In this document: positions 1,586 to 18,223 of the stretch, piece by piece | Layout: each line of letters starts with the position of its first letter | How positions within the stretch are numbered: the first letter of the stretch is position 1 | From: an uncultured Bacteroidales bacterium | GTDB lineage: Bacteria > Bacteroidota > Bacteroidia > Bacteroidales > Paludibacteraceae | Assembly (NCBI GenBank): GCA_902766045.1 | Contig: CACXCA010000058.1 | Location: 1-64,000, forward strand | Direction of reading: 5' to 3' | DNA: 64,000 nucleotides | The notes under the pieces: generated by a model | The model's database searches: none | What the model was told of the DNA's origin: nothing | What the model saw: only the letters and a program-made list of their open reading frames with translations | Translations under genes and position numbers: made by a program

Positions 1586-2239
1586 TCACAAAGAATTACC
1601 ATATCTATCTAACCATGATTGTGCTTGTTCACAATCGGGGCAATGAGATCGAAGCAGTGTATGAAAGCGAGTTGTATGCTTCATAATTATTGTATGACAC
1701 AATTCATGAATTATGACGTAATCAATAACAAATACAGGGGATTTGATTAATCGCCAATTGATTGATATGTTTTTCTCAGAAGAACAGTTGCCCCATTTCT
1801 TCTTCTGGCTTCTGATATATAGTTTGTTATATGGTATAAGTAATGCTTTAGATAATGTCTCAACACGTCTGGCAATATATTTTTTTGCTTCAGATTTCAA
1901 CCATTTTTCTTGTATTTTCAGATCTAGCAAATTACGATTTGCTAAAATCGTCTTACTCTCATGATTCACAACAACCTTGTTCTTATATGTAGTTGAATAA
2001 TAATAAGAATAGCGATTCCCATATAGCAGAATTTCATTCCGACAGAGTTGAATTTTTGCCTTTTGTTCAAAGAATCTTAGCTTTGATTCTATCCAAGATT
2101 TTTTTCTATCCAGTAATTTTTCAACATCCTCGTCTGTAAATGCAAGTGGGATGTATAATTGTACCATTCCATTTTCATTAATACGAAGTCGAGCATTCTT
2201 CACGTCTCGACGAACTATTATAACATTCTCTTTCTGCAT
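1586..2239 (-). CDS. YgjP/DUF45-family zinc metallopeptidase
   Basis: This 217-aa protein belongs to the M48-like YgjP (WLM/DUF45, COG1451) family. The zinc motif HELCH is at residues 178-182, with a following MKH (His188) as the likely third ligand. The family signature KKKWGNCSS is at about 147-154. No signal peptide is seen, so it should be cytoplasmic. It starts one base after the hsdR stop and is clearly co-transcribed with it. Members of this family often accompany type I restriction genes in bacteria; their substrate there is not established. Length is normal for the family. Confidence 0.85.
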   Translation of the reverse strand: MQKENVIIVRRDVKNARLRINENGMVQLYIPLAFTDEDVEKLLDRKKSWIESKLRFFEQKAKIQLCRNEILLYGNRYSYYYSTTYKNKVVVNHESKTILANRNLLDLKIQEKWLKSEAKKYIARRVETLSKALLIPYNKLYIRSQKKKWGNCSSEKNISINWRLIKSPVFVIDYVIIHELCHTIIMKHTTRFHTLLRSHCPDCEQAQSWLDRYGNSL

Positions 2240-2240
2240 A

Positions 2241-5200
2241 TTACATCAGACTGAAATTCTCGACTATTGATTTCATAATTGCATCACCCAAAGGAGTGTC
2301 AAGATCCAGATTCAACGCTTCGTATTTCGGATTGGCTGCTAGCAATTCCATATCAGCTTTGATTCGATTATATTCCTGAGGTACCTCTTGCCAACCGATG
2401 TAAATCTTTGATTGAATGCGCAGTGTCTGCTCATTAGCAAATTCACGAACCAATTGTTCATCGAAATTAGCTCCTTCATTTTTGATTATTTGGTAAATCT
2501 CAAATGTCCCTTTGTTGGCAAAGCCCATTTTCATAGGAATCTCCATGACCTCATCCACTTCGGTATATAGTTCACTTAGTTTTTCCAGTAACCCTTGAAT
2601 TTCTATGGTATGAGCATTTTTCATCTGAATTAGTGCATCTAATCGCTCTTGGTATTCAATATAGATTGCACTATTGTTTTGGTTCATGCGAATCATCGTC
2701 TCTATATCACGAATGATTTTTTCTGCCTTGTCGGAAGGTGAAAGTTTCGTTTCCTGCAACTTAGTTAAGTAATCGGAATCAATGGAAATTTCGGGTAGAT
2801 GGCCACGGAAGTTAAGTAATGTAGCACTCTCTTCCAACAATTTACGTGTTTGTGCTGCATAAAACTCGGCATCAAAATTCATGCGACGAAATTCTTCCAA
2901 ATACAATTCATAAATGGTAACCAACCATTGATATTTATTACGGAAAGTCCGCAAACCAGGATTGGGACTAATAGCCTCCCACAACTGCACTACTCTATGA
3001 AAACGATTCTCAAACTGACCATGGTCGATTTCGCTTAATTTTCGGATAATAGCCATTTCACACTCGTAGCTGTCAACCAATTCAATATCTTCGAACGGCT
3101 CAAATGCTATATCCAGTTCTTTCGGGAACGTTTCCAACAACGCATCTACATCTTCAAATTCTCCAATGTCAGAGGGGTCATAATTTAATGCTTCCTTATA
3201 ATTTTGAAATACGCCTACATAATCGACAATACGACCAAATTCCTTTGAAAGTTTTGTTTCTCCCTCGCCATAATCATACGGACGATTGGTTCGTGCAACT
3301 GCCTGCAATAAATTGTGATCACGTAGCGGACTGTCTAAATACATGGTCTGCTCTATCGGAGCATCAAATCCAGTAAGAAGCATATTGCATACGATGAAGA
3401 TTTTCAAGTTGTTGCCCTTCGCAATCTCCTCGTCTGTAATTCGTTTCTTAAAATTAGCAATCAGGCGCTTGCGTTCCTTGTCATCAATATAGAATGGAGA
3501 AAAGAGATCATAATGTTCTCCCGTTTCGTATTGTCCTGTTGAGAAGATGATGCGAATTTCCGATTTGTCAAAATAGTTGAGCAATTCATTGTAATACATC
3601 ACACATGCTTCCTTATCAATGGCAACAACTTGAGCTTTGAACCCTTGAGGCTCCAATCTCTCATGGAAATCTTTGGCTATATCGGCGGCCAAGATTTTGA
3701 TACGTTCGGGTTTCTTCATCAATGTTTTCCATGGCTGTACGCGTTGTTCAACCTGACGTTTCTGATTTTCCTCTAAATCAGCAGTTACTTCATCGTATCC
3801 CTTCTTCAGGTTTTCTTTGTCCAAAAACCATTGAGAAGGTCCTAAAGTATATCGGATAGGCTTAGTGGCACCATCGTTGATGGCATCGATAACACTATAT
3901 TTGTCCAAATAATACTCCATCTTTCCATTCCCGTCTTTGGTGCCAAATTCTTGATGAGTTTTTGGAATAGGTGTTCCTGTAAAAGCGAAGCGTTTCGCAT
4001 TGGGTAATACAGCCCTTAGTTCCATTTGATAGTCTCCATATTCGGTACGATGAGCCTCGTCAATAAGAACAATCACATTGCCTCGGTCATCCTTTACATC
4101 TCCTAATTCACTAAATTTCTGAACAGTGGTGATGAACACACCTGCAGGTTGGTTTTTTAGGATACTTTTTAAATCCCCCACACTCATTATAATGCGAGCA
4201 TTTGGAAATTCGCAATCAAAAAACGTATCACCCATCTGGTCTTTTAAATCTTTACGATCTACTACGATGAAAACGGTAGGGTCATCAAGAACGTTTGTCT
4301 TTCGTAGTTTGTAGGCAGTATAAAGCATGGTGAGTGATTTTCCAGAACCTTGTGTGTGCCATATTACACCTTGTGCTTTATCAGACTGTATCACCCTATC
4401 TACTATCTTATTAGCAGCACGAAGTTGTTGATACCGTGCCACTTTTTTGATTATTTTACCGTTGTCTCGTTCAAAGACAATGAAGTGTTGTAGAATATCG
4501 AGTACTCTTTCTGGTTGCAACAAACCAATGATACCAAATTTCATCTGTTCGAGCAATTGTCCGTTGGGCAAGCGTTCCACATCAAAGTGTGTCAGTCCGT
4601 CGGTTTCGTCTTGATACACTTGGCATAGAGTATTGTCGGGATGTTGTATTGGATTGTCATATTTGTTGGCAAGAATAGAATCCTTCCATTCATTAAAATA
4701 GGAAGCGGATGCCCCAGGAATTCCATATTTGCATAACCTACCGTTACAAGCGACTCCAAATAGATGGGTGATGAACAGTTTGTCACTACGTCGATCGTAG
4801 GTTTGGAATTGTCGCACACCCTCAAGCCAATTAGTGCCACGTCGGGCACATTGTTTAGCTTCGATGGGAACTAATGGAATTCCATTAATTAACAGACAGA
4901 TGTCTGCCCTCACTTGTTGCACCGCATATTGGTTGGTGACGATAAGGCTGTTTTGCCATATATCTTCAAAGTTGATGAAGCGGATGGTACGGTCTTTATG
5001 GTCGATGGTAAGGGTAACGCCTTCGCAGAGTTGGTTGAGGAAATTTTCATTGCCCTCAATGGGTATAGGATTGTGTAGATTATTAAGTAGAACATCCACT
5101 GCCATTTTAGCCGATTGTTGGTCAATGTCGTTTAATACCATTACTTGTTCCACTAATAATGGTTCCACAATTGCATTTACTTGTAGGCGGTTATAGTGTT

Positions 5201-5300
5201 TCAAATCTTCCGCTGAGCAATAGGTCCATCCCAACTGGGTGAGCCACTCGGTGACTTTGGATTCTACGGGCTTGTTTTCGTGAAGTTGTGACATATTCAA
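2241..5300 (-). CDS. hsdR: Type I restriction enzyme, endonuclease/translocase subunit
   Basis: HsdR (1019 aa) is the motor and nuclease subunit that, with HsdM and HsdS, translocates and cuts unmodified DNA. The N-terminal PD-(D/E)xK nuclease is visible: Asp133, then Glu147-x-Lys149 in PIEAKQ. The SF2 helicase motor follows: Walker A TQGSGKS (about 316-322), the DEAH box in LIDEAH (412-417), motif III FTGTP (about 437-441) and motif VI QAVARTNRPY (about residue 680). The C-terminal third is helical, as expected for HsdM contact. No frameshift is visible, so the gene looks intact. It is separated from hsdM/hsdS by an unrelated ATPase-TOPRIM pair; the TOPRIM stop is 26 nt upstream of the hsdR start. 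Confidence 0.95.
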   Translation of the reverse strand: MNMSQLHENKPVESKVTEWLTQLGWTYCSAEDLKHYNRLQVNAIVEPLLVEQVMVLNDIDQQSAKMAVDVLLNNLHNPIPIEGNENFLNQLCEGVTLTIDHKDRTIRFINFEDIWQNSLIVTNQYAVQQVRADICLLINGIPLVPIEAKQCARRGTNWLEGVRQFQTYDRRSDKLFITHLFGVACNGRLCKYGIPGASASYFNEWKDSILANKYDNPIQHPDNTLCQVYQDETDGLTHFDVERLPNGQLLEQMKFGIIGLLQPERVLDILQHFIVFERDNGKIIKKVARYQQLRAANKIVDRVIQSDKAQGVIWHTQGSGKSLTMLYTAYKLRKTNVLDDPTVFIVVDRKDLKDQMGDTFFDCEFPNARIIMSVGDLKSILKNQPAGVFITTVQKFSELGDVKDDRGNVIVLIDEAHRTEYGDYQMELRAVLPNAKRFAFTGTPIPKTHQEFGTKDGNGKMEYYLDKYSVIDAINDGATKPIRYTLGPSQWFLDKENLKKGYDEVTADLEENQKRQVEQRVQPWKTLMKKPERIKILAADIAKDFHERLEPQGFKAQVVAIDKEACVMYYNELLNYFDKSEIRIIFSTGQYETGEHYDLFSPFYIDDKERKRLIANFKKRITDEEIAKGNNLKIFIVCNMLLTGFDAPIEQTMYLDSPLRDHNLLQAVARTNRPYDYGEGETKLSKEFGRIVDYVGVFQNYKEALNYDPSDIGEFEDVDALLETFPKELDIAFEPFEDIELVDSYECEMAIIRKLSEIDHGQFENRFHRVVQLWEAISPNPGLRTFRNKYQWLVTIYELYLEEFRRMNFDAEFYAAQTRKLLEESATLLNFRGHLPEISIDSDYLTKLQETKLSPSDKAEKIIRDIETMIRMNQNNSAIYIEYQERLDALIQMKNAHTIEIQGLLEKLSELYTEVDEVMEIPMKMGFANKGTFEIYQIIKNEGANFDEQLVREFANEQTLRIQSKIYIGWQEVPQEYNRIKADMELLAANPKYEALNLDLDTPLGDAIMKSIVENFSLM

Positions 5301-5326
5301 AATAAAGAATTACAAAAGTATAATTA

Positions 5327-6055
5327 TTATGAAAATGATTCTTTTATTTTTTCTTGCATGTGTTTAATACTATCGGATTTAAGGCAATAGCACATATCAT
5401 AAAGTTGTTTTTGACTATATTTAATAGTCCTTTCTTTTCTACCAACAATCATTCTAACAAGATGAAATAACGAATGCCCTCGCAATAATAAATCATACCC
5501 TTTTCTTAAGTATTCAATAGAATTTTGTGAAGGCTCTTTATAATCAGTTAACTTTGATGTATCCAATAAATAATCTTTTGATAGTATGTTTTCTGGCAAT
5601 TTAGTAAAATCAAATTCTTTTCCATTTTTGAATTTTTCTAACTCACATGCATAATATCGTAAAAACTCATTTAGCGATTTTTCAAACAAAAACTTGTCAT
5701 CTTTCTTAAAATAATGTTTTTCAAAAGTTTTCCCTTGGTATAAATCATTCTCAATACTATATCCTTCTGTATAGATTACATTATTATCAATAGGTGTTCT
5801 ATTAGAATAGACCAATGTGTCTTTATCAATAATAAAAATAACATTAGGATTAACAATTTCATTTCTCCTACTAATTAATGAGTTGACCCCATCACATCCA
5901 GTTCTTGGTTCCATAAGCCCCGCACAATCTATTTCATCAAGAATCCATCTATACACCATAGCATCGTCTGGCCCTTCAACAATAATATAGGGTTGAGAAG
6001 AATGGTTTATTGTAGCTATTAATTCATCATCTGACAAATACCTTCCCATATTCAT
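5327..6055 (-). CDS. TOPRIM/DUF4435-type nuclease partner of the ATPase (PARIS/OLD-like module)
   Basis: This 242-aa protein starts with a TOPRIM-like fold: IIVEGPDDAMVYRW gives Glu27 and Asp30/Asp31, and IFIIDKD gives Asp77 and Asp79, the pattern of an acidic metal-binding nuclease or topoisomerase-primase centre. The rest is helical and Lys-rich. Its start overlaps the ATPase stop by 4 nt (ATGA), which implies stoichiometric co-expression. AAA ATPase plus DUF4435/TOPRIM pairs include the anti-phage PARIS system (AriA/AriB) and OLD-like systems. This protein is short for AriB, so the exact class is open. Base composition is much more AT-rich than hsdR or hsdM. Confidence 0.72.
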   Translation of the reverse strand: MNMGRYLSDDELIATINHSSQPYIIVEGPDDAMVYRWILDEIDCAGLMEPRTGCDGVNSLISRRNEIVNPNVIFIIDKDTLVYSNRTPIDNNVIYTEGYSIENDLYQGKTFEKHYFKKDDKFLFEKSLNEFLRYYACELEKFKNGKEFDFTKLPENILSKDYLLDTSKLTDYKEPSQNSIEYLRKGYDLLLRGHSLFHLVRMIVGRKERTIKYSQKQLYDMCYCLKSDSIKHMQEKIKESFS

Positions 6056-7122
6056 TCTCCTTTATCTTCACTTAAGATTATCTCCTTATCAGCATATTTT
6101 GTGTAAATGAAAGGACTGTGAGTTGCGATAAAAAATTGATTATTATTACCTTGTTTTAATAATTTTGGAATTAAAAGCCGTTGCCAATCAGGATGTAAAC
6201 TTAATTCGGGTTCATCAATAAATATTATCTTATTTTTAGAAAAAGTGTTATAACATAGAAAACTCAACATCTGTTTTTCTCCCGCAGATAATTTATCTGA
6301 AGATATCAAATTATGTTCATCTCCAAACTTTATAGAATCCATATCAATTCCTTTTTTATGAAAAACATTAGAAATTAAATTCTGTAAAACCTCGAAAGCT
6401 TTAAATCTTTCCTCTCTTTTTTCTTCTACCATTTTTATTTCAGATTCAATCTGTTTTAGTTTTTCTTCTGGAGTTAGTTCGTTCTTCACCTTAGTTAGCT
6501 CCATTAATTTCTTAAATTGCTTTCGTTGAAGATCGTCGATATCTTTCATTATTGAAGTATATTCTTTATTGATTAATGACGTAATATCATCGGTAGAAAC
6601 AGATGCTATAAATTGATGCTTCTTTGTTGATAACTCTTTTGATAATTCGGATAGTCCTTCTTTTAATGAATAAGAAAATCGTCTAAATTGAGATATTCCA
6701 TCTATTGAAAATCCACCTTCAATACGTCTAAATGTTGGGAAAAAAATAGAACTGTCACAATATTTTTCAAATTCTTTTTTTGTTATTCCAGATATTTCTT
6801 CAGGGAAAAGATCCTCTATTTCAAATGGATATGTTTTTTGAATTTCTCTTAGTTTTCTATCTTCTATTTTTCTCCACGAAATCTTTTTGGGATTTTTACT
6901 TATCTCTATATAATATTTATCTGTCGTTAATTTTAAAACTTTAAAATTTATTTCTTGAAATAAAGAAGAAAAATTTGCACTATTAACAAACCATAATATT
7001 TTAAGAATTGTGGTTTTCCCACACCCATTTAATCCAGTGAACAAATTCAAATCGTCATTAAATTTAAATTTAAATGACCTTTTGTTTCCATTAAGTTCTT
7101 CTATGAACAATTCCTTTATCAT
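6052..7122 (-). CDS. ABC/SMC-type AAA ATPase of the nested defence module
   Basis: This 356-aa ATPase is of the AAA_15/OLD class. It shows Walker A GLNGCGKT (30-37), an ABC-like signature LSAGEKQML (about 278-286), Walker B FIDEPELSLHPDW (about 301-313) and a His-switch in THSPF (about 334-338). Between them lies a charged coiled-coil stretch (about 185-250). The head-plus-coil arrangement is that of AriA/OLD-type sensors that hold a toxic nuclease partner. The gene begins 19 nt after the hsdS stop and overlaps the TOPRIM gene by 4 nt. Very AT-rich codon use suggests separate acquisition from the flanking hsd genes. Role inferred: phage defence, possibly guarding the host restriction system. 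Confidence 0.78.
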   Translation of the reverse strand: MIKELFIEELNGNKRSFKFKFNDDLNLFTGLNGCGKTTILKILWFVNSANFSSLFQEINFKVLKLTTDKYYIEISKNPKKISWRKIEDRKLREIQKTYPFEIEDLFPEEISGITKKEFEKYCDSSIFFPTFRRIEGGFSIDGISQFRRFSYSLKEGLSELSKELSTKKHQFIASVSTDDITSLINKEYTSIMKDIDDLQRKQFKKLMELTKVKNELTPEEKLKQIESEIKMVEEKREERFKAFEVLQNLISNVFHKKGIDMDSIKFGDEHNLISSDKLSAGEKQMLSFLCYNTFSKNKIIFIDEPELSLHPDWQRLLIPKLLKQGNNNQFFIATHSPFIYTKYADKEIILSEDKGE

Positions 7123-7141
7123 ATTGTTTTGTTTAAATTGT

Positions 7142-8374
7142 TTATATTTTCACTCTCACCCTCCCCGTCAGCAAATTCTGCATCAGCGACTTCTTCAGTC
7201 TCTCAAGGACGGCGATTTTATTTTGTTTATTAATAATTTCTTGACCTATCTTACTTATTGAATTAGAAATCTGATTCTGTTCTTCCAACTTAGTTGGAAT
7301 CATTATCTTTATTTTGCATAAATCTGATTTGTTTATTTTGGGTTGGGCTGAACCATATACTATATTATCATATTTCTTTGCTTCCAAAATCATGACTATT
7401 AAGTTTATATCATAATTATCATAAACTCGCAAAATATGAGCATGATTATTTACCCAAAACTTTCCTTTTACGATAAATGCTTGGGGCACTTTTCTTGATA
7501 ACAGGTTTTCGCCATCTTCACCAAACAAAAGATATGTTCCATCAAAAAGATAATTATTTATATAATCAACAATCCCAGCTGCTCCGTAATATGGATATAT
7601 TCCTTTTATATTATCTCTATCTGTCGATTTTATTGGTTTTCTTAAATTGTCCAAATTTTCGGCTATATCTCCAACTTTCTTCACCTTCCACCCCTCGGGC
7701 ACTTTCCCGAACTTCTCATCCATATAAAATTCATCATCTTTGCGCATAGTGCCATCGGGTTTCATGCGACCTGTGAGAAGGTTCTGCATTAGACTCTTCT
7801 TCAAACATTCGGCGGTGGCTATGCTATTCTGCACAGAGGCTATCGATTCATCTACCTTTGAGAGAATATTGGCAATGGCGGTTTGCTCGTGCTTTTCAGG
7901 AAAATGAATATCCATATTCCTCAAATAACGAATATCCAAATTGCCTAATCCAGTCGTGCCTTCAGCAACAGAAGTAATTCTTTCTTGAATCGCATGAGAC
8001 GACATCCATCTGAAGAAATACTCAGGCAAAATATCAGAATCGTCTTTGGGCTTAAAAGCGGTCAAGAATGAAGCAAACAGATAATCTGTATCATCTTTGA
8101 TAAATATCGCATTGCCTATTCTTTTGCGATTTCCATTTGAACTTACCGCAATACACCAATCCTTACTTACCGCTTTTTCTTTCCTATCTTTCTCACTGAC
8201 ACCTTGCAGATATAATTCTTCCGTCAAATCCAAATCCTTTTGAATATTTGTCACAGTAAGCACCCTGACCGAATTAGGCTCTTGAGCTTTCATCTCTTGT
8301 TCCTTCGACCATGTATATCCAGACTTGTGTTGAATCTGATTCTTGAATTTATCTGTCTTCCAACCTTCCATCAT
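7142..8374 (-). CDS. hsdS: Type I restriction enzyme, specificity subunit
   Basis: HsdS (410 aa) has the usual two-half architecture: target recognition domain 1 (about 1-170), a conserved helix ending LKKSLMQNLLTGR (about 190-205), recognition domain 2 beginning at the VPEGWKVKKVGD segment (about 225-370), and a second copy of the same helix end at the C-terminus. The duplicated LKKSLMQNLLTGR element is the conserved spacer where recognition domains are exchanged by recombination. The second half is noticeably more AT-rich than the first, consistent with a swapped domain. The start lies 3 nt after the DUF1016 stop. The recognition sequence cannot be read from the protein. Confidence 0.93.
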   Translation of the reverse strand: MMEGWKTDKFKNQIQHKSGYTWSKEQEMKAQEPNSVRVLTVTNIQKDLDLTEELYLQGVSEKDRKEKAVSKDWCIAVSSNGNRKRIGNAIFIKDDTDYLFASFLTAFKPKDDSDILPEYFFRWMSSHAIQERITSVAEGTTGLGNLDIRYLRNMDIHFPEKHEQTAIANILSKVDESIASVQNSIATAECLKKSLMQNLLTGRMKPDGTMRKDDEFYMDEKFGKVPEGWKVKKVGDIAENLDNLRKPIKSTDRDNIKGIYPYYGAAGIVDYINNYLFDGTYLLFGEDGENLLSRKVPQAFIVKGKFWVNNHAHILRVYDNYDINLIVMILEAKKYDNIVYGSAQPKINKSDLCKIKIMIPTKLEEQNQISNSISKIGQEIINKQNKIAVLERLKKSLMQNLLTGRVRVKI

Positions 8375-8377
8375 AGT

Positions 8378-9562
8378 TCATTCTTTATTTTGTAACTTAT
8401 AGAACTCCTTCTGCTGTTCTATTTCACGTCTCAGTTCCTCTTGGGTGGGCATATAAGTGAGATACTTGGCGGCATAAAGTTGGTCGCTACCGTTGAGTAC
8501 CGAATAATGCGCCACATCATCGTCGGTGTCGGCGCAAAGCAACAACCCGATTGTCGGATTATGTCCTTCGGGGCGCACCAGTTCGTCGTACATCTTCACA
8601 TACATATCCATCTGTCCCACATCTTGATAGCACAACTTCTTCGTTTTCAAATCAATGAGAACAAAGCAACGCAGATGATAGTTGTAGAACACCAAATCGA
8701 TATAGTAATCCTCTTTCTCGGTATGTATGTGCTTTTGACGATCAACAAATGCGAATCCTTTGCCCAATTCCATAAGGAATGGAATAAGATGATCTATAAT
8801 GCTCTGTTCCAAACTGCTCTCCGTATAATCCGTATTGTTCTTGAAACCCAGAAACTCTGCTACGACAGGATTCTTCAAGTATTCCAGTTTGTCTTGCAAA
8901 GGCTTAGTCAACTTCTGCATTTCGTCATGCACTACTGCCTTATCATGCGACTGAAGGAGACGATAATAGTATTGTGACGAGATATTACGCTGCAAGGTGC
9001 GAGTGCTCCACATTTCGTTGGCAGCCTCGTTCTCGTACCATGCGCGGGCCTCGGCATTGGATTCTTGGAGAATGATGCTATAGTGAGACCATGACAATCT
9101 AAAGGGTTGGGTAGGTGTCAATTGTCCATACAAATCTAATTCTAAAGATAATCCCGTCGTCGCTGGGACAATTTCAGATTGTCCAGTCACTGATTGGAAA
9201 ATCTCCTCAGCAGCCCCCATCAGCAATTTTCCAGTCGCTGATTGGAAAATGTTTGAATGCTCTTTATAAAAGGATATAAAAAGATACAAGTTGCTCTTCT
9301 TGTAACCACGACCATATCTTTCAGTAAGTTGACTGGCTAAATTTGCGATGATCTGCTCTCCATATTCAGCCCGTTGGTCTTTCAACACTTCGTGCTGAAT
9401 ACGCATCCCGAGCAACCAGTTGCGCTTGATGAGTATTTCGTTCACTGCGCGGTAGGCCACCAACTGTGCCTGCTCAATTATGGCACAGGCATCCTGAAAC
9501 AGGCCTTGGCTTGAAACGAGCATTTCCTCATTTTTTTCACTATGTTTCTCCATTTCCATCAT
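8378..9562 (-). CDS. DUF1016 (YhcG-type) PD-(D/E)xK nuclease
   Basis: This 394-aa protein has a helical DUF1016 N-terminal domain (about 20-200) and a C-terminal PD-(D/E)xK nuclease domain. The core YYIDLVFYN gives Asp289 and VLIDLKTKKL gives Asp304 and Lys306, and the conserved QMDMYVKMYD helix follows. The family is common inside Bacteroidota type I restriction operons, where its function is undefined; a nuclease or methylation-dependent role is plausible. Around residues 105-128 there is a near-repeat (IFQSATG / IFQSVTG) in an insert. The start overlaps the hsdM stop by 4 nt, so it is co-translated with hsdM. Confidence 0.9.
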   Translation of the reverse strand: MMEMEKHSEKNEEMLVSSQGLFQDACAIIEQAQLVAYRAVNEILIKRNWLLGMRIQHEVLKDQRAEYGEQIIANLASQLTERYGRGYKKSNLYLFISFYKEHSNIFQSATGKLLMGAAEEIFQSVTGQSEIVPATTGLSLELDLYGQLTPTQPFRLSWSHYSIILQESNAEARAWYENEAANEMWSTRTLQRNISSQYYYRLLQSHDKAVVHDEMQKLTKPLQDKLEYLKNPVVAEFLGFKNNTDYTESSLEQSIIDHLIPFLMELGKGFAFVDRQKHIHTEKEDYYIDLVFYNYHLRCFVLIDLKTKKLCYQDVGQMDMYVKMYDELVRPEGHNPTIGLLLCADTDDDVAHYSVLNGSDQLYAAKYLTYMPTQEELRREIEQQKEFYKLQNKE

Positions 9563-11604
9563 TGTTCATTGTCAATTGTTTTCAGCAACTCCTCCAACTC
9601 TTTCTCCACTGTTGTCTCTGTTTGCATCGCTGCTTTGAAATCAGCAATGGCTTGTTTCAAATCAATCTGCTCTTCCGGTTCAAACGTATCGACATAGCGT
9701 GGAATGTTGAGGTTGAATTCGTTCTCTTCTATCTCTTCCATATCCGCAATGGAGAAATACCTTTTACGAAGCTCAGGGTCAGCAAACATCTGCATAAGTT
9801 CTTCTTCTACTTCTGCAATAGCTAGACGTTGTTTCTCAGCTTTTTCGTTGGCAGCATTTACACGTGCCGTTTTGTCGTCAACTAATTTGTTCAACGATTT
9901 CTGTGCAGTTTCTATTGCTTTCAATTCACTCGCTGTTGGCTTTTTCCCAACCTCTGTCTTCAATTGAACTGCTCGTTTGGCCTTCTCTAATTTCTCGGAC
10001 TGAAGTGCTATTACTTCTTTTGTATCATTTTCTATTTCGGAAAGTTGATAATCAAGTTCTTCTTGAATCTGATTGTATAATCGTTTCTTCTGAGTATTAA
10101 TCCAATCCTTGGCTTTCTCCACATCGCCCCAGCTTTCCAAAATAGTAGAGATACGCAACACATCTTGAGGTTCAAGAACACTCATATTGGCATCTTCTCG
10201 ATACCAACCCTTCTTTGCGGCATACACCATCAAAACCTTATCCTTGTGCTCTTTCGGTTTGTTCTTATCGAAGAAAATGATGGCTCCAGGAATGGTTGTT
10301 CCATAAAACAAATTGCTTGGCAACACCACAATGGCATCAATGATATTGATCTGTTGAGCAAAATCTACACCTTGTAAAAAACCTCGGCGTATCAAATATT
10401 CCACATCAGCCTTACGGTTCTGTCCGTCTTCCTCTTCCGTCTTTTCGGGTTGCCCACGGAATAAAACACCTTGTGGACATACAACGCCAGCCTTGCCTTT
10501 TTCGTCGAGCGAAGCAATTATATGTTGTAAATATGCAAAGTCTCCATTGGAATATGGGGGCATACCATAAATCATGCGATTGTAAGAATCTGTAAACTCT
10601 TTTTTGTATTCTATCTGTGGTTTACCATCTTTTTTGGTAACGTTTTTACCATTTTTGTCTTTTTTTGGTTCTCCGTTTTGTGCCCAATTTTCCTGTGAGA
10701 ATGGGAAATTTGCCATCACTTTGTCAAAACTTCTTAGCGTTAATTCGTTATCTTCCTCTTTGAATTTAGGATTACGAATGGTATCGCCTTGTTCAATACG
10801 AGCATCCAGACCATGTAAAATCATATTGATGTTGCAGATAGCCCATGTGTTCCACACTAATTCCTGACCAAACAGCCGAATGCTTTTTTGTGTGTCGAAA
10901 CTTTCACGAGCATATTTTGCAGCGTTCAATAGGAAACCACCAGATCCGCACGTAGGGTCATATACAGTTTCTCCTTTCTGTGGCTTCAGATAGCGAACAA
11001 TGATATCCACAACCTCCTGTGGGGTATAGAATTGACCTGCCATAGTGCCACCTTTATTTTCATCGGCAAATCGCTTTATCAGGTATTCATAGGCATCGCC
11101 TAATACATCTACAGTTACATTTTTATTGCTTAAATCAACAACACTTAGATAGTTGATAAGATTCGTAAGCACTTCGGGGTCGAGTTTTGTTCTTCCAGAG
11201 CCATCGGGTGCAGGCTCGTTCCAACGCACCGTATTGATGATGCCTTTTAAAATGTAATTTCCATTTCGATCCACATTTTGTTCAGCGATGGTATTTACAG
11301 CCTTATTCAATATCTCATTTTTTTTGTCAATGGAAGCTTTCCTTACATCTTCCCAAAAACATCCGTCAGGGATGAGAAAATCATGCATTTTCTTAGTAAT
11401 CACTTCCAATTCTTTTGGGGAAGGTTCTCTTGCATAATCTTTTATAAATTGAGCTTTCCCATTCTCAATCTCCCATTTGTAATTATCAGAAAGACGCTTG
11501 AAAAACAGTAAAGAAAGTATATATGATTTATAATCCTCCACTTTGTCGCGAAGGATATCGGCCATGCCGAAAAGAGTGTGACCTAAGGCTTGTTTTGTAA
11601 TCAT
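9559..11604 (-). CDS. hsdM: Type I restriction-modification system, methyltransferase subunit
   Basis: HsdM (681 aa) is an N6-adenine DNA methyltransferase that pairs with HsdS. The HsdM N-terminal domain covers about 1-160. The SAM-binding motif YDPTCGSGGF lies at 215-224. The catalytic motif IV reads NFPF (299-302, in MANFPFSQ) where most N6-adenine methylases have NPPF. A long charged coiled-coil tail (about 500-600) follows the catalytic domain and makes the protein longer than the classical enzyme. It is the first gene of the operon, behind a -7 box at 11628-11635. Confidence 0.94.
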   Translation of the reverse strand: MITKQALGHTLFGMADILRDKVEDYKSYILSLLFFKRLSDNYKWEIENGKAQFIKDYAREPSPKELEVITKKMHDFLIPDGCFWEDVRKASIDKKNEILNKAVNTIAEQNVDRNGNYILKGIINTVRWNEPAPDGSGRTKLDPEVLTNLINYLSVVDLSNKNVTVDVLGDAYEYLIKRFADENKGGTMAGQFYTPQEVVDIIVRYLKPQKGETVYDPTCGSGGFLLNAAKYARESFDTQKSIRLFGQELVWNTWAICNINMILHGLDARIEQGDTIRNPKFKEEDNELTLRSFDKVMANFPFSQENWAQNGEPKKDKNGKNVTKKDGKPQIEYKKEFTDSYNRMIYGMPPYSNGDFAYLQHIIASLDEKGKAGVVCPQGVLFRGQPEKTEEEDGQNRKADVEYLIRRGFLQGVDFAQQINIIDAIVVLPSNLFYGTTIPGAIIFFDKNKPKEHKDKVLMVYAAKKGWYREDANMSVLEPQDVLRISTILESWGDVEKAKDWINTQKKRLYNQIQEELDYQLSEIENDTKEVIALQSEKLEKAKRAVQLKTEVGKKPTASELKAIETAQKSLNKLVDDKTARVNAANEKAEKQRLAIAEVEEELMQMFADPELRKRYFSIADMEEIEENEFNLNIPRYVDTFEPEEQIDLKQAIADFKAAMQTETTVEKELEELLKTIDNEQ

Positions 11605-11627
11605 TCGTAGTTATTATTTATTTTACA

Positions 11628-11635
11628 CAAATGTA
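11628..11635 (-). promoter_or_regulatory. -7 box of the hsdM operon promoter
   Basis: TACATTTG on the minus strand is a perfect TAnnTTTG box 24 nt before the hsdM start. No clear -33 TTTG partner is visible at the usual spacing. Confidence 0.5.
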
Positions 11636-14044: not shown

Positions 14045-17000
14045 TTAGCGTACTATGAATTTGACTCTTTGTCCATTAATCTCTATGATGTAAACAGTTT
14101 GGCGAGGAAGTGGTATTTGCGTCACATCCTTGGCGATGCCCTCCACAACGGAAGTGCCACGCACATCATAGATGCGATATGGAGTATCGGCGGATGCATA
14201 GACAAAGAGAGAACCGTCGGACGACCAAATACGCAAATCGTCATTATCAATCGATAAGACACCCAAACTCTGAATATATAATCCTTTTACGGTAACATTC
14301 TTAGCCGGCATTGTCTCCGGTAATCCTTTCCATCCGTCAAACGTATAGCCCTTCTTCGCAGGTCCCTCTATCGGGATAATCGTATCACCGAAGGCAATGG
14401 TATCTTTCCGATAAACCTTATCATCCACCTTGTAGGTGAGAACATATTTGTTCACACTGAATAAAGCATTAAAGGTGAGGTCATGATTAGGCATTTTCAG
14501 TGGCGTACCTTTCTCTCCTATCCAACCGTTAAAAGAATAACCTGTCTTCTTTGGCGCTGGAATGCCTTCGTGCGTGATAGGAGTGCCACTAGCTAATGTA
14601 TCCGTCATATACAATTCACCATCCACCATATAGGTGATGACATGCTCATCTTTTTGCCACAAAGCGGTACACACGTACGGAACGTTGAAGAAATCCTTCT
14701 GATTGATCTTCAAAGTGGAAAGCGTGTCAAGTCTCGTGATCGAGCCACCCTCTTGTGAAACCTCCCAACCAACGAAAATATAATTTTCCTTTACAGGATC
14801 ACTAATCGTTAGTGGACAATCCCGGAACTCAAATTCTTCTACGCCTTCTTCTCCTTCTTTCCATGCACCACCATCCAAGTCATAGATGATGCTTGATTTG
14901 TTGTAGGTAAATAGTCCTCTTCTATTCTCAACACCCCAGTCTTCACTAGGTGCGCTATACCAAAGTCCTTCCTCTGTGAAGTCACTGACCACAGAACCAC
15001 GACCTCCAACCAAAGAGTTACAGTTCTTGAACATATCCCTTTGATTTGCGATTGAAACCCGATCGTAATTGTCACCTATTATAATTCTTTTCAAAGAGGA
15101 ACAATCATAAAATGTATGGCTCATAAAGAGATAGGATTGCTCGAACTTAACATGGGAAAGGTCTATATATTCAAGATTCTTACAACCATAAAACATGTAA
15201 TCCATTTTCCCAATCGCAAGACCGTCAAGTCCTTTGACACACTTTAACTTCTCGAATCCGTAGAACCAATAGTTCATCGAGCGAAAAATATTATTGGTAC
15301 ATAAATGAGTGAAAGAATCTATTATGACCGTTTCTATACATGATCTGAAATCCTTCCATGGTACAAGAGAATCACTATCAATGTTAAAAATGTTAGGACA
15401 AGGGGTGACGTTCTCAGGCAGGTATCCTCCCACACTGATTGTGAGCGTACGTGCGACGGTATCCGCCACGAAGTAATGGAAGAACGTGTCGGTTAGATAA
15501 CCTGGATTGCTGGCACCCTCATCCACATGAGCAAAGATAGCATCCGAATCGATGGATGGATCGTAAGTCGTACCCATCCTGCCCACAAGATTGTTACAAC
15601 CACCAAAGATATACTTGCTGTCAGCTCCCAGCGATTCAGTGCTCCACAATGCTTTATCCACATAGATTGCCCTTAAGTTTTCACAGCTGCCAAACATGGA
15701 GCCCATATCGGTCACCTGTTTGGTGTTGAAACTTTGTAAATTAGTATATCGAAGGTTATAGCATCTACAAAACATGGAATTCATGTCCATGACATTCTCC
15801 GTGTTGAAGTTCTTCAAATCAATCGACTCAAGTTTATTGCATGCGGAGAACATAGTTCTCATGTTGGTAACATTGCTCGTATTGAAGCCAGACACATCAA
15901 ATGACTCAAGATTTTCGCAATTCAAGAACATGCTTCTCATGTTGCGTACATTATCCGTGCGGAAGTTATCCCCGAAGTCAAGTGCTCTTAAGGAATACAT
16001 GCCTAGGAACATGCCAGTCATGTCCGTCACTTTATCGGTATGGAATTTAATGGTAAGAGAATCAATGCGGATGCAGTCGGCAAACATGAGGCTCATGTCA
16101 GTGACCTCTCTCGTATCAAAATAGAAATCCAAGGATTTGAGATTCATACAAGTGTAGAACATCGAACTCATGTCTGTCACATTGTCCGTTTCCAAATTAT
16201 TCAGATTTTCAATGTAATGAAGGTTCTCGAAATCCGCAAACATCCTCCTTGTCGTATATGGGTGAAATTTGCTCATAGACCTATCAATTACAATCAACGT
16301 GTCCTCTTTCCTGTTAAGTTTACTTCCAGAAAGGTCTGGATTTATTTTAGATTGCCAATAGTATTCTATGCCATTGTCACTATCCTGCCGCATGATGAAG
16401 GAATTGTCAGGGGCAATGCCATAGTAGAAGGTGAGTGTCTTACCTTCTCTGACGACATAGACTTGCTTTCCGTAGGAGAAATAACCAGGGAGGCTCTCCC
16501 CTTCATCGATATGGGCGTATGATTTATCTATGTGGTTCTTATCATATACTGTTCCTTTTTCTCCAACCAATGAAACACATCCTTTGAACATGTTATCATC
16601 AGTGCTAAGGGAATCCGTTCGCCAACTATCACTCACCTGAATGGTTGTCAATGAGGAATCGCCCGAGAACATAGATGTCATTTCGGTCACTTGTTGAGTA
16701 TCGAATCTAGACAAATCCAAGGTGTCAAGACTGCTACAGCCTTTAAACATGCCATTCATGTTGGTAACTTTTCGAGTGTCAAAATTAGACAATTTCAGTT
16801 TCTTACAATTACTGCAATTCGTAAACATAAATGCCATGTTCTCTACCTTCCATGTGTTGAAACAGCTTAAATCCAGTTCTTCGAGAGAGGAACAACCGGA
16901 GAACATTTGACCCATTTTCGTTACCTTTCTTGTATTAATATCCCATCCAAAATTCAACGAAACAAGAGAAGAGCAGTTTTTGAACATTCCAGACATGTTT

Positions 17001-18223
17001 GTGACCGAATCTGTCCTTAGATTTGACAATCCTTCTATCGTTTTCATCCGGGAATAGTCCTTGAACCAGTTGGAAAGGGATGTCGGATGATAAGTTTGCA
17101 TGGACGGATCAATCACGACGTTTGTAACTGTAGCGACATCAATCGTATCCGTTCCGAGAATCCATTTCCCGTCTTTAAGTATGTGTGCTCCAGGGGCATC
17201 CACTCCATAACACAATCTCAAGTCACATGAATCGACGCGGTTGTAAACATCATAATGCACATTAAAAGGTATCGCATACATTTTACGGTCAGTTGCTAAC
17301 GTGAAATAGCCAGGATCATCCTCTCCGCCATCAACGTGCGCATAGATACTACCTGAACCCTTAAAGGTTGTCCCTTTACCTCCAACTAAGTTAGGACAGC
17401 CTACAAACTGGTCCGGATATGCAGAGTCATCTGCGAAATGAGACTTGTCCCAAGTTTTGTTGACGATAATAGTACGCAATTTTTTAGTACCTCCTTCTGA
17501 TCCAAACACCCTCCACGCATCTTTCACCATATTAATGTTTATACCGCTGACATCCAGCACTTCTATATCCAGCATGGTATGGAACATTCCGGATATGGAT
17601 CTCAGTCTCGCTGTATTAATCCCTATGAGGTTCAATGATTTAAGATGTAAACATCCGGCAAACATATAGTTCATGTTGGTCACCATGGTTGTTTCGAAGT
17701 TACTAATATCCAACGATTCTAAAAAGGCACATCCCTCAAACATGGATTCCATGCTAGTTACATCTCCCGTATTCAAATACTCCAACCCCTCGATTGTCTT
17801 TGCATGTAAATGATAAAACCATCCTGCAAGAGTGATAGGATGGCATGATCTGAACGACTGGTCAATAACCACCTTTCCTGTCACCTTATGTCCGTTCAGG
17901 TATGTGTCGCCAGACTTCCAGACACTTTTAGGGATACTTGGATCATTGGGATTAGGCGCTTCCCACGCTACCTCCCAAATGTAGCCGGTAGGCAATTCCG
18001 GAGCGTAAGTGTAGGTCCCCTCTCCAGGGTCCTCCCCATACTTCAGAGTGAAGGTGGATTCACTCTCGTTGAATACTCCGTAAACTACTTTGTTGGCTGC
18101 TGCAGCCGACTGATAAAAAAAAGACAACAGGAAAAAGAGCAAGGAGATCACTTGCCATCCCTTCCGTTGCGGACCATGACTTATGCAAGGCCTTTGGGCT
18201 TTAGGGGTAAAAAAACTACACAT
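14045..18223 (-). CDS. BspA-type leucine-rich-repeat surface protein with T9SS-like tail
   Basis: This 1392-aa exported protein has a hydrophobic signal segment (about 23-42) preceded by an unusually long basic stretch. Four repeat blocks follow, built of DUF285/BspA units of the form MFxxCxxLxxLDLSxFDTxxVTxM. Three blocks close with an AHVDEGxxxPGYFT-type motif (ends near residues 305, 580 and 900). Three InlB/List-Bact-like beta repeats (about 1130-1320, with F-x-GW motifs) come next. A final 70-residue module ends QRVKFIVR, like a type A T9SS sorting domain. BspA proteins mediate adhesion and co-aggregation in oral and gut Bacteroidota; here the ligand is unknown. Monocistronic, convergent with the AAA+ gene. 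A shorter start closer to the hydrophobic segment is possible. Confidence 0.88.
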   Translation of the reverse strand: MCSFFTPKAQRPCISHGPQRKGWQVISLLFFLLSFFYQSAAAANKVVYGVFNESESTFTLKYGEDPGEGTYTYAPELPTGYIWEVAWEAPNPNDPSIPKSVWKSGDTYLNGHKVTGKVVIDQSFRSCHPITLAGWFYHLHAKTIEGLEYLNTGDVTSMESMFEGCAFLESLDISNFETTMVTNMNYMFAGCLHLKSLNLIGINTARLRSISGMFHTMLDIEVLDVSGININMVKDAWRVFGSEGGTKKLRTIIVNKTWDKSHFADDSAYPDQFVGCPNLVGGKGTTFKGSGSIYAHVDGGEDDPGYFTLATDRKMYAIPFNVHYDVYNRVDSCDLRLCYGVDAPGAHILKDGKWILGTDTIDVATVTNVVIDPSMQTYHPTSLSNWFKDYSRMKTIEGLSNLRTDSVTNMSGMFKNCSSLVSLNFGWDINTRKVTKMGQMFSGCSSLEELDLSCFNTWKVENMAFMFTNCSNCKKLKLSNFDTRKVTNMNGMFKGCSSLDTLDLSRFDTQQVTEMTSMFSGDSSLTTIQVSDSWRTDSLSTDDNMFKGCVSLVGEKGTVYDKNHIDKSYAHIDEGESLPGYFSYGKQVYVVREGKTLTFYYGIAPDNSFIMRQDSDNGIEYYWQSKINPDLSGSKLNRKEDTLIVIDRSMSKFHPYTTRRMFADFENLHYIENLNNLETDNVTDMSSMFYTCMNLKSLDFYFDTREVTDMSLMFADCIRIDSLTIKFHTDKVTDMTGMFLGMYSLRALDFGDNFRTDNVRNMRSMFLNCENLESFDVSGFNTSNVTNMRTMFSACNKLESIDLKNFNTENVMDMNSMFCRCYNLRYTNLQSFNTKQVTDMGSMFGSCENLRAIYVDKALWSTESLGADSKYIFGGCNNLVGRMGTTYDPSIDSDAIFAHVDEGASNPGYLTDTFFHYFVADTVARTLTISVGGYLPENVTPCPNIFNIDSDSLVPWKDFRSCIETVIIDSFTHLCTNNIFRSMNYWFYGFEKLKCVKGLDGLAIGKMDYMFYGCKNLEYIDLSHVKFEQSYLFMSHTFYDCSSLKRIIIGDNYDRVSIANQRDMFKNCNSLVGGRGSVVSDFTEEGLWYSAPSEDWGVENRRGLFTYNKSSIIYDLDGGAWKEGEEGVEEFEFRDCPLTISDPVKENYIFVGWEVSQEGGSITRLDTLSTLKINQKDFFNVPYVCTALWQKDEHVITYMVDGELYMTDTLASGTPITHEGIPAPKKTGYSFNGWIGEKGTPLKMPNHDLTFNALFSVNKYVLTYKVDDKVYRKDTIAFGDTIIPIEGPAKKGYTFDGWKGLPETMPAKNVTVKGLYIQSLGVLSIDNDDLRIWSSDGSLFVYASADTPYRIYDVRGTSVVEGIAKDVTQIPLPRQTVYIIEINGQRVKFIVR

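Follow-up and report, generated by a model that had tools for sequence, protein, structure and literature searches.

The window, a 64,000-nucleotide stretch of DNA from an uncultured Bacteroidales bacterium, carries on its minus strand a seven-gene operon that, according to the ORF coordinates, runs hsdM, DUF1016, hsdS, ATPase, TOPRIM, hsdR and ygjP. Coordinates and family matches confirm the order from hsdM to hsdR that had been proposed in a sequence-only reading of this DNA, and the type I subunits as well as the DUF1016 protein are clearly identified by both Pfam and PADLOC. The operon comprises the following features:

11627..11635, minus strand: candidate -7 promoter box of the Bacteroidetes type, TACATTTGT, just before hsdM (pattern TAnnTTTGY)
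9559..11604, minus strand: hsdM, methyltransferase subunit (N6_Mtase, Pfam)
8378..9562, minus strand: DUF1016/YhcG PDDEXK nuclease gene between hsdM and hsdS (YhcG_C; PADLOC candidate PDC-S02)
7142..8374, minus strand: hsdS, specificity subunit with two Methylase_S stretches (Pfam)
6052..7122, minus strand: AriA-like OLD/ABC-type ATPase, putative sensor, 356 aa (AAA_15/AAA_21, PADLOC, PDB, predicted fold)
6052..6055, minus strand: 4-nt stop/start overlap coupling the ATPase and TOPRIM genes (ORF coordinates)
5327..6055, minus strand: AriB-like TOPRIM (DUF4435) predicted nuclease, 242 aa (DUF4435, PADLOC, PDB profile, predicted fold)
5312..5320, minus strand: candidate -7 promoter box of the Bacteroidetes type, TACTTTTGT, in the gap before hsdR (pattern TAnnTTTGY; no good -33 box)
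2241..5300, minus strand: hsdR, restriction/translocase subunit, likely ATG start at 5294 (SWI2_SNF2/HSDR_N)
1586..2239, minus strand: ygjP, YgjP-like metallopeptidase, the last gene of the operon (kept after hsdR in sister operons)

From hsdM to ygjP the intergenic distances are -4, 3, 19, -4, 26 (32 if hsdR begins at the ATG) and 1 nt. The overlap of 4 nt within the pair and the gap of 19 nt before it are thus exactly as first reported, while the reported gap of 26 nt after the pair holds with a TTG start of hsdR but not with the likelier ATG at 5294. Because homology places the start at this ATG (MSQLHENKP in the window, MSKLHEQKP in the sister operon L009), the gap is better taken as 32 nt. 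The GSGKS, DEAH and EAK motifs of HsdR are intact. The pair is, as had been noted, more AT-rich than its neighbors, with a GC content of 27.6% compared to 36.3% in hsdS, 39.5% in hsdM and 40.1% in hsdR. Beyond the boxes before hsdM and hsdR, the operon strand contains only one further -7 box, inside DUF1016. Because a -7 box precedes hsdR, it is not certain that one transcript runs through this gene; hsdR may have its own promoter, for which the box is a lead only. Adjoining the operon, at 14045-18223 of the window, lies a gene for a repeat-rich protein of 1392 aa, in which a ‘NVTNMSGMFxxC’-like unit occurs many times and which appears to be a surface protein of the BspA-like (DUF285) type.

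In the ATPase the Walker A motif (GLNGCGKTT), the ABC signature (LSAGE) and the Walker B motif (FIDEPE) are all intact, and the subfamily motif is FFPTFRRIEGGF. Both AAA_15 (78.2 bits) and AAA_21 (72.4 bits) score over the Pfam cut-off, the top PADLOC model is AriA (1.8e-26), and AriA is also the closest sequence in the PDB (1.5e-15). A profile built from relatives of the ATPase retrieved AriA from the PDB at 7.5e-32, with the next family at 2.6e-17. According to Foldseek and VIA-align, the AlphaFold2 model (pLDDT 84.9), which features a two-helix hairpin of the coiled-coil kind (helices 177-211 and 218-253), best matches AriA with a Z of 25.1 over 311 residues, followed by Septu with 16.6. 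Septu and Gabija were considered for the ATPase and rejected: the PtuA models score high, yet the partner gene and the fold ranking weigh against this assignment. For Septu (PtuA/PtuB), moreover, the partner here is a TOPRIM/DUF4435 gene and there was no HNH match.

The catalytic residues E27, D77, D79 and E102 are present in the TOPRIM protein and, together with N103, are invariant in 64 TOPRIM proteins. DUF4435 is a near miss by the strict Pfam score (26.6 bits vs. a cut-off of 27, 0.4 under), and the TOPRIM protein of the sister pair L009 clears it with 30.1 bits. AriB is the sole family matched in PADLOC (1e-7), it is matched by 60 of the 64 relatives, and it is the only match when a profile of the TOPRIM proteins is run against the whole PDB (1.1e-4). 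In the profile alignment E27 is equivalent to Glu26 of AriB, D77/D79 to the acidic pair, and SIEN to the SLEN motif. The AlphaFold2 model (pLDDT 94.6) has its best match in AriB with a Z of 15.1 over 230 of 242 residues, compared to 9.3 for OLD and 5.9 for Gabija (GajA) (Foldseek, VIA-align). With an identity of only ~14% to the solved AriB over the structurally aligned residues, and a length reduced by some 65-75 residues, the protein may have a different RNA target from AriB.

Sequence, profile and fold searches all rank AriA/AriB first, well before Septu, Gabija and OLD, so that the link to PARIS first suggested for this locus holds at each of these levels. The pair has the gene content by which PARIS is recognized, an AAA_15/AAA_21 ATPase gene next to a DUF4435 gene, as well as the predicted AriA/AriB folds and the catalytic residues (Walker A/B, ABC signature, TOPRIM Glu and acidic pair). 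The model matches and the aligned catalytic residues argue for folds and active sites of the PARIS kind in shorter proteins. We conclude from sequence and predicted structure that the two genes encode a putative short, divergent PARIS-type AriA/AriB module, in line with the earlier remark that the TOPRIM protein is shorter than AriB; the pair belongs to a divergent subgroup. A housekeeping identity was rejected, as the strong matches of the pair are to defense ATPase and DUF4435/AriB models and to no housekeeping family.

Relatives of the pair were gathered by scanning a sampled genome collection for a motif of the middle region of the ATPase (FFPTFR). In ~89 distinct places the ATPase and TOPRIM genes stand next to each other, usually no more than a few bases apart (median spacing 0); their products have median lengths of 375 aa and 252 aa, respectively. 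These pairs occur in Bacteroidota, Pseudomonadota, Bacillota, Chloroflexota, Poribacteria, Acidobacteriota, Verrucomicrobiota and viral contigs, and this spread is a sign of the mobility of the pair. Because the genes are kept as an adjacent couple in ~89 other places, and because the nested order is repeated in L009 and L064, the pair is not a chance arrangement. Type I genes lie near the pair, within the DNA stretch examined, in 3 of 92 loci, and in 2 the pair sits in the hsdS-hsdR slot. Among the immediate neighbors of 32 other pairs no defense family was common to more than one member, the Specificity_I matches all coming from the hsdS of L064. Scanning the genome collection directly with the single TOPRIM protein gave no relative, phage records gave no match, and a phylum-wide profile search from two TOPRIM sequences added one doubtful match only.

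Poribacteria genomes (L056 and L042) carry the ATPase-TOPRIM pair in tandem copies. A four-gene system in Poribacteria was considered and rejected, since the neighboring genes, of 559 and 275 aa, are an unknown and an epimerase-like gene. Pseudomonas poae and a viral contig (L029 and L091) share an identical pair, which may therefore ride on a prophage or satellite there.

The survey of hsd operons covered nine operons in sampled genomes including that of the window; L009 came from the ATPase scan and seven more from HsdR-based searches in Bacteroidota (same core, ygjP after hsdR). The same type of pair was found in one of the eight related operons, and their hsdS-hsdR gaps contain:

L009 (another Bacteroidales): the same type of ATPase-TOPRIM pair
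L104: 454 bp, nothing recognized
L105 (G043 C2), 5125-8048: a 688-aa protein and BroN-Fic
L108 (G846 C4): two caspase-domain proteins, a Schlafen/AlbA_2 protein and a four-helix (IVP) protein
L109, 5392-9969: HigB/HigA-like genes and McrBC
L113: RhuM with IVP genes on both sides
L114, 10492-13546: McrBC
L115: GmrSD

The HsdR proteins of these operons are 55-86% identical to that of the window, yet the contents of the gap differ, which indicates that the operon is stable while its cargo changes. The hsdS-hsdR gap is a cargo slot that holds different defense genes in related operons, and in the window the defense genes lie on the same strand between an intact hsdS and an intact hsdR. Between hsdM and hsdS lies another, smaller slot, which is occupied by DUF1016 in the window and in L104, and by an AlbA_2 protein in L108; in L104 the DUF1016/YhcG gene is doubled. 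The 688-aa protein of L105 belongs to no clear Pfam family and has a candidate PIN-like stretch. At 7987-9427 of L108 the two Peptidase_C14 genes stand beside the AlbA_2/Schlafen gene, possibly a protease-based suicide layer within an hsd operon.

Identities and a tree bear on whether the pair entered the slot in one event or in more. HsdR is 80.4% identical between window and L009, but the ATPase only 59.3% and the TOPRIM protein only 45.7%. The window pair has similar identities to the non-embedded pair of L010 (58.5% and 44.2% for ATPase and TOPRIM), and L009 is nearer to L010. In the tree the L009 pair groups with L010 (99/94) and not with that of the window, although forcing window and L009 together was rejected only marginally in the tree test (p-AU 0.047). 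From this, two insertions, or one insertion followed by a move out, are both possible. The nested order recurs separately in the Akkermansiaceae locus L064. At this locus the ATPase gene shares 4 nt with a partial hsdS. After the TOPRIM gene comes an HSDR_N fragment that scores slightly below the Pfam cut-off and is split by an AlbA_2 gene. L064 is distant from the window in the tree, where it forms a long branch, and a joint clade with window and L009 was rejected (p 8e-6); judged by these sequences, its nesting is an apparently independent case. As a rough estimate, if a genome has some 3,500 gene junctions and only one or two of them are of this kind, chance alone would place far fewer than one pair in the slot.

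PARIS is characterized by an AriA6:AriB3 complex from which AriB is released on a trigger. It has been established that the AriA complex holds AriB until Ocr or another phage trigger frees it, and that the anticodon stems of tRNA-Lys, tRNA-Thr and tRNA-Asn are then cut by the freed AriB (PMC12409363, PMC9122126). In the AriB mutant E26A, tRNA cleavage is lost (PMC12409363). We hypothesize, with a probability of roughly 0.55, that the pair in the window is a short PARIS-type abortive-infection module, carried as cargo between hsdS and hsdR and serving as a backup to restriction. By analogy with the characterized systems, a complex of the AriA-like ATPase would hold the TOPRIM nuclease inactive. 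Once a phage protein (plausibly an anti-restriction protein or a DNA mimic) bound to the ATPase, the TOPRIM protein would be released, dimerize and cut host tRNA, which would stop translation and the phage. Nesting in the hsd operon would keep this second layer moving and expressed together with the first, and physical contact with HsdRMS would not be required. The conserved elements that PARIS action requires are present in the pair; what triggers it in this host, and which RNA it would cut, we infer from the analogy. On the other hand, to our knowledge most PARIS systems have no known trigger, and we know of no Ocr-like inhibitor in phages of this host; both points count against the backup reading. 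The same holds for the BREX-nested PARIS of Salmonella, which did not respond to Ocr and stopped none of the tested phages (PMC11341690).

Alternatively, the pair could be a self-sufficient PARIS-like module that responds to something other than anti-restriction, such as a phage structural or replication protein. It could owe its place in the hsd operon solely to the gap, a site that is prone to recombination, is transcribed already and gathers defense genes. The unrelated cargo of the sister slots, the rarity of type I genes near the pair (3 of 92 loci) and the grouping of the L009 pair with a non-embedded one (99/94) all fit this explanation. It is nevertheless somewhat unlikely, considering that the nested order has at least two origins (Bacteroidales, Akkermansiaceae), which exceeds random placement, and that an anti-restriction protein does trigger characterized PARIS. 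We regard as rather unlikely a further proposal, in which the short PARIS lineage, marked by the FFPTFRRIEGGF motif and by size, would in its hsd-embedded form have specialized in sensing inhibitors of the type I enzyme encoded around it, as one of several interchangeable backups exchanged through one hsdS-hsdR slot.

The sequence-only reading had also raised a guard of the restriction enzyme against anti-restriction proteins. As a dedicated guard, the ATPase would bind HsdRMS directly and free the nuclease upon inhibition, comparable to PrrC silenced by EcoprrI. The shared operon with its short gaps suits such a guard, as does the precedent of PrrC, a tRNA nuclease gene in an hsd locus (PMC12707154), but PARIS is active with no type I enzyme present and is not regarded as a guard of EcoKI (PMC9122126). 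In addition, hsd neighbors are absent from most of the closest relatives of the pair, nearly all of which lie outside hsd operons, and the pair has apparently been exchanged independently of hsd. Because of the independence of PARIS, the diversity of the cargo and the many free-standing relatives, a private guard is less likely than an independent second layer, and we consider it distinctly improbable. Least probable of all is an OLD- or Gabija-like DNA nuclease, of which the OLD-like form had been proposed earlier and whose TOPRIM protein would cut phage DNA under ATPase control: OLD and GajA are the next structural matches to the TOPRIM fold and OLD-like_TOPRIM is weakly matched by 18 of the 64 relatives, but AriB is clearly the best match in every search and over the whole length, and the two domains lie on separate genes, as in PARIS, in an operon without a UvrD-like (GajB-type) helicase gene.

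Our analysis extends PARIS-type modules to type I restriction operons of Bacteroidales, and shows that very different second-line systems (PARIS-like, McrBC, GmrSD, Fic, caspase-like, RhuM) are exchanged through the same gap within a single lineage of hsd operons. This swapping makes a clean test possible, in which the restriction enzyme is constant and the backup layer differs. The hsdS-hsdR gaps of other genomes are suggested as places to find defense genes.

The comparison with PARIS (AriA/AriB of E. coli P4 satellites; Rousset et al. 2022, PMC9122126; structures 8ux9, 8v45-8v49) shows the same adjacent OLD/ABC ATPase followed by a DUF4435 TOPRIM gene, with shared catalytic motifs and, in the models, shared folds over nearly the full length. 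In contrast to solved PARIS, the proteins are shorter (ATPase 356 vs. 464 aa, TOPRIM 242 vs. 316 aa) and of very low identity, and in contrast to the systems of PMC9122126 the DUF4435 score lies just below the 27-bit rule of that paper and the pair is located in a type I operon. The broad published definition of PARIS (AAA_15/AAA_21 plus DUF4435) already takes in pairs of this kind, which leaves the distinct subtype suggested earlier as a candidate only. Within the open-access literature we found no paper that places a pair of the PARIS type among type I restriction genes. In Salmonella D23580, an AriA/AriB-type pair described as a PARIS homologue is likewise nested in a DNA-modifying defense operon, which is BREX and not type I (PMC11341690), and PARIS-like modules are present in many BREX operons (PMC12839542).

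The hsdS-hsdR slot itself has a counterpart in the EPEC RRDM island, where DarTG2 occupies the same position in the same gene order, with a metallopeptidase (M48) gene after hsdR; the differences are that the cargo is a toxin-antitoxin system and that the RptR repressor gene heads the operon (PMC12255303). This site has been proposed as a potential recombination hotspot for defense systems (PMC12255303). In Vibrio VPI-2, TgvAB is likewise nested in a type I operon, with a GmrSD-type modification-dependent enzyme as cargo, comparable to the sister operon L115, and RloF is located between hsdR and hsdS (PMC11411939). PrrC in EcoprrI resembles the pair in being a candidate tRNA nuclease encoded in an hsd locus, but belongs to another protein family and becomes active upon inhibition of the type I enzyme. 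The nested pair is a new example of a known arrangement and not a new kind of system.
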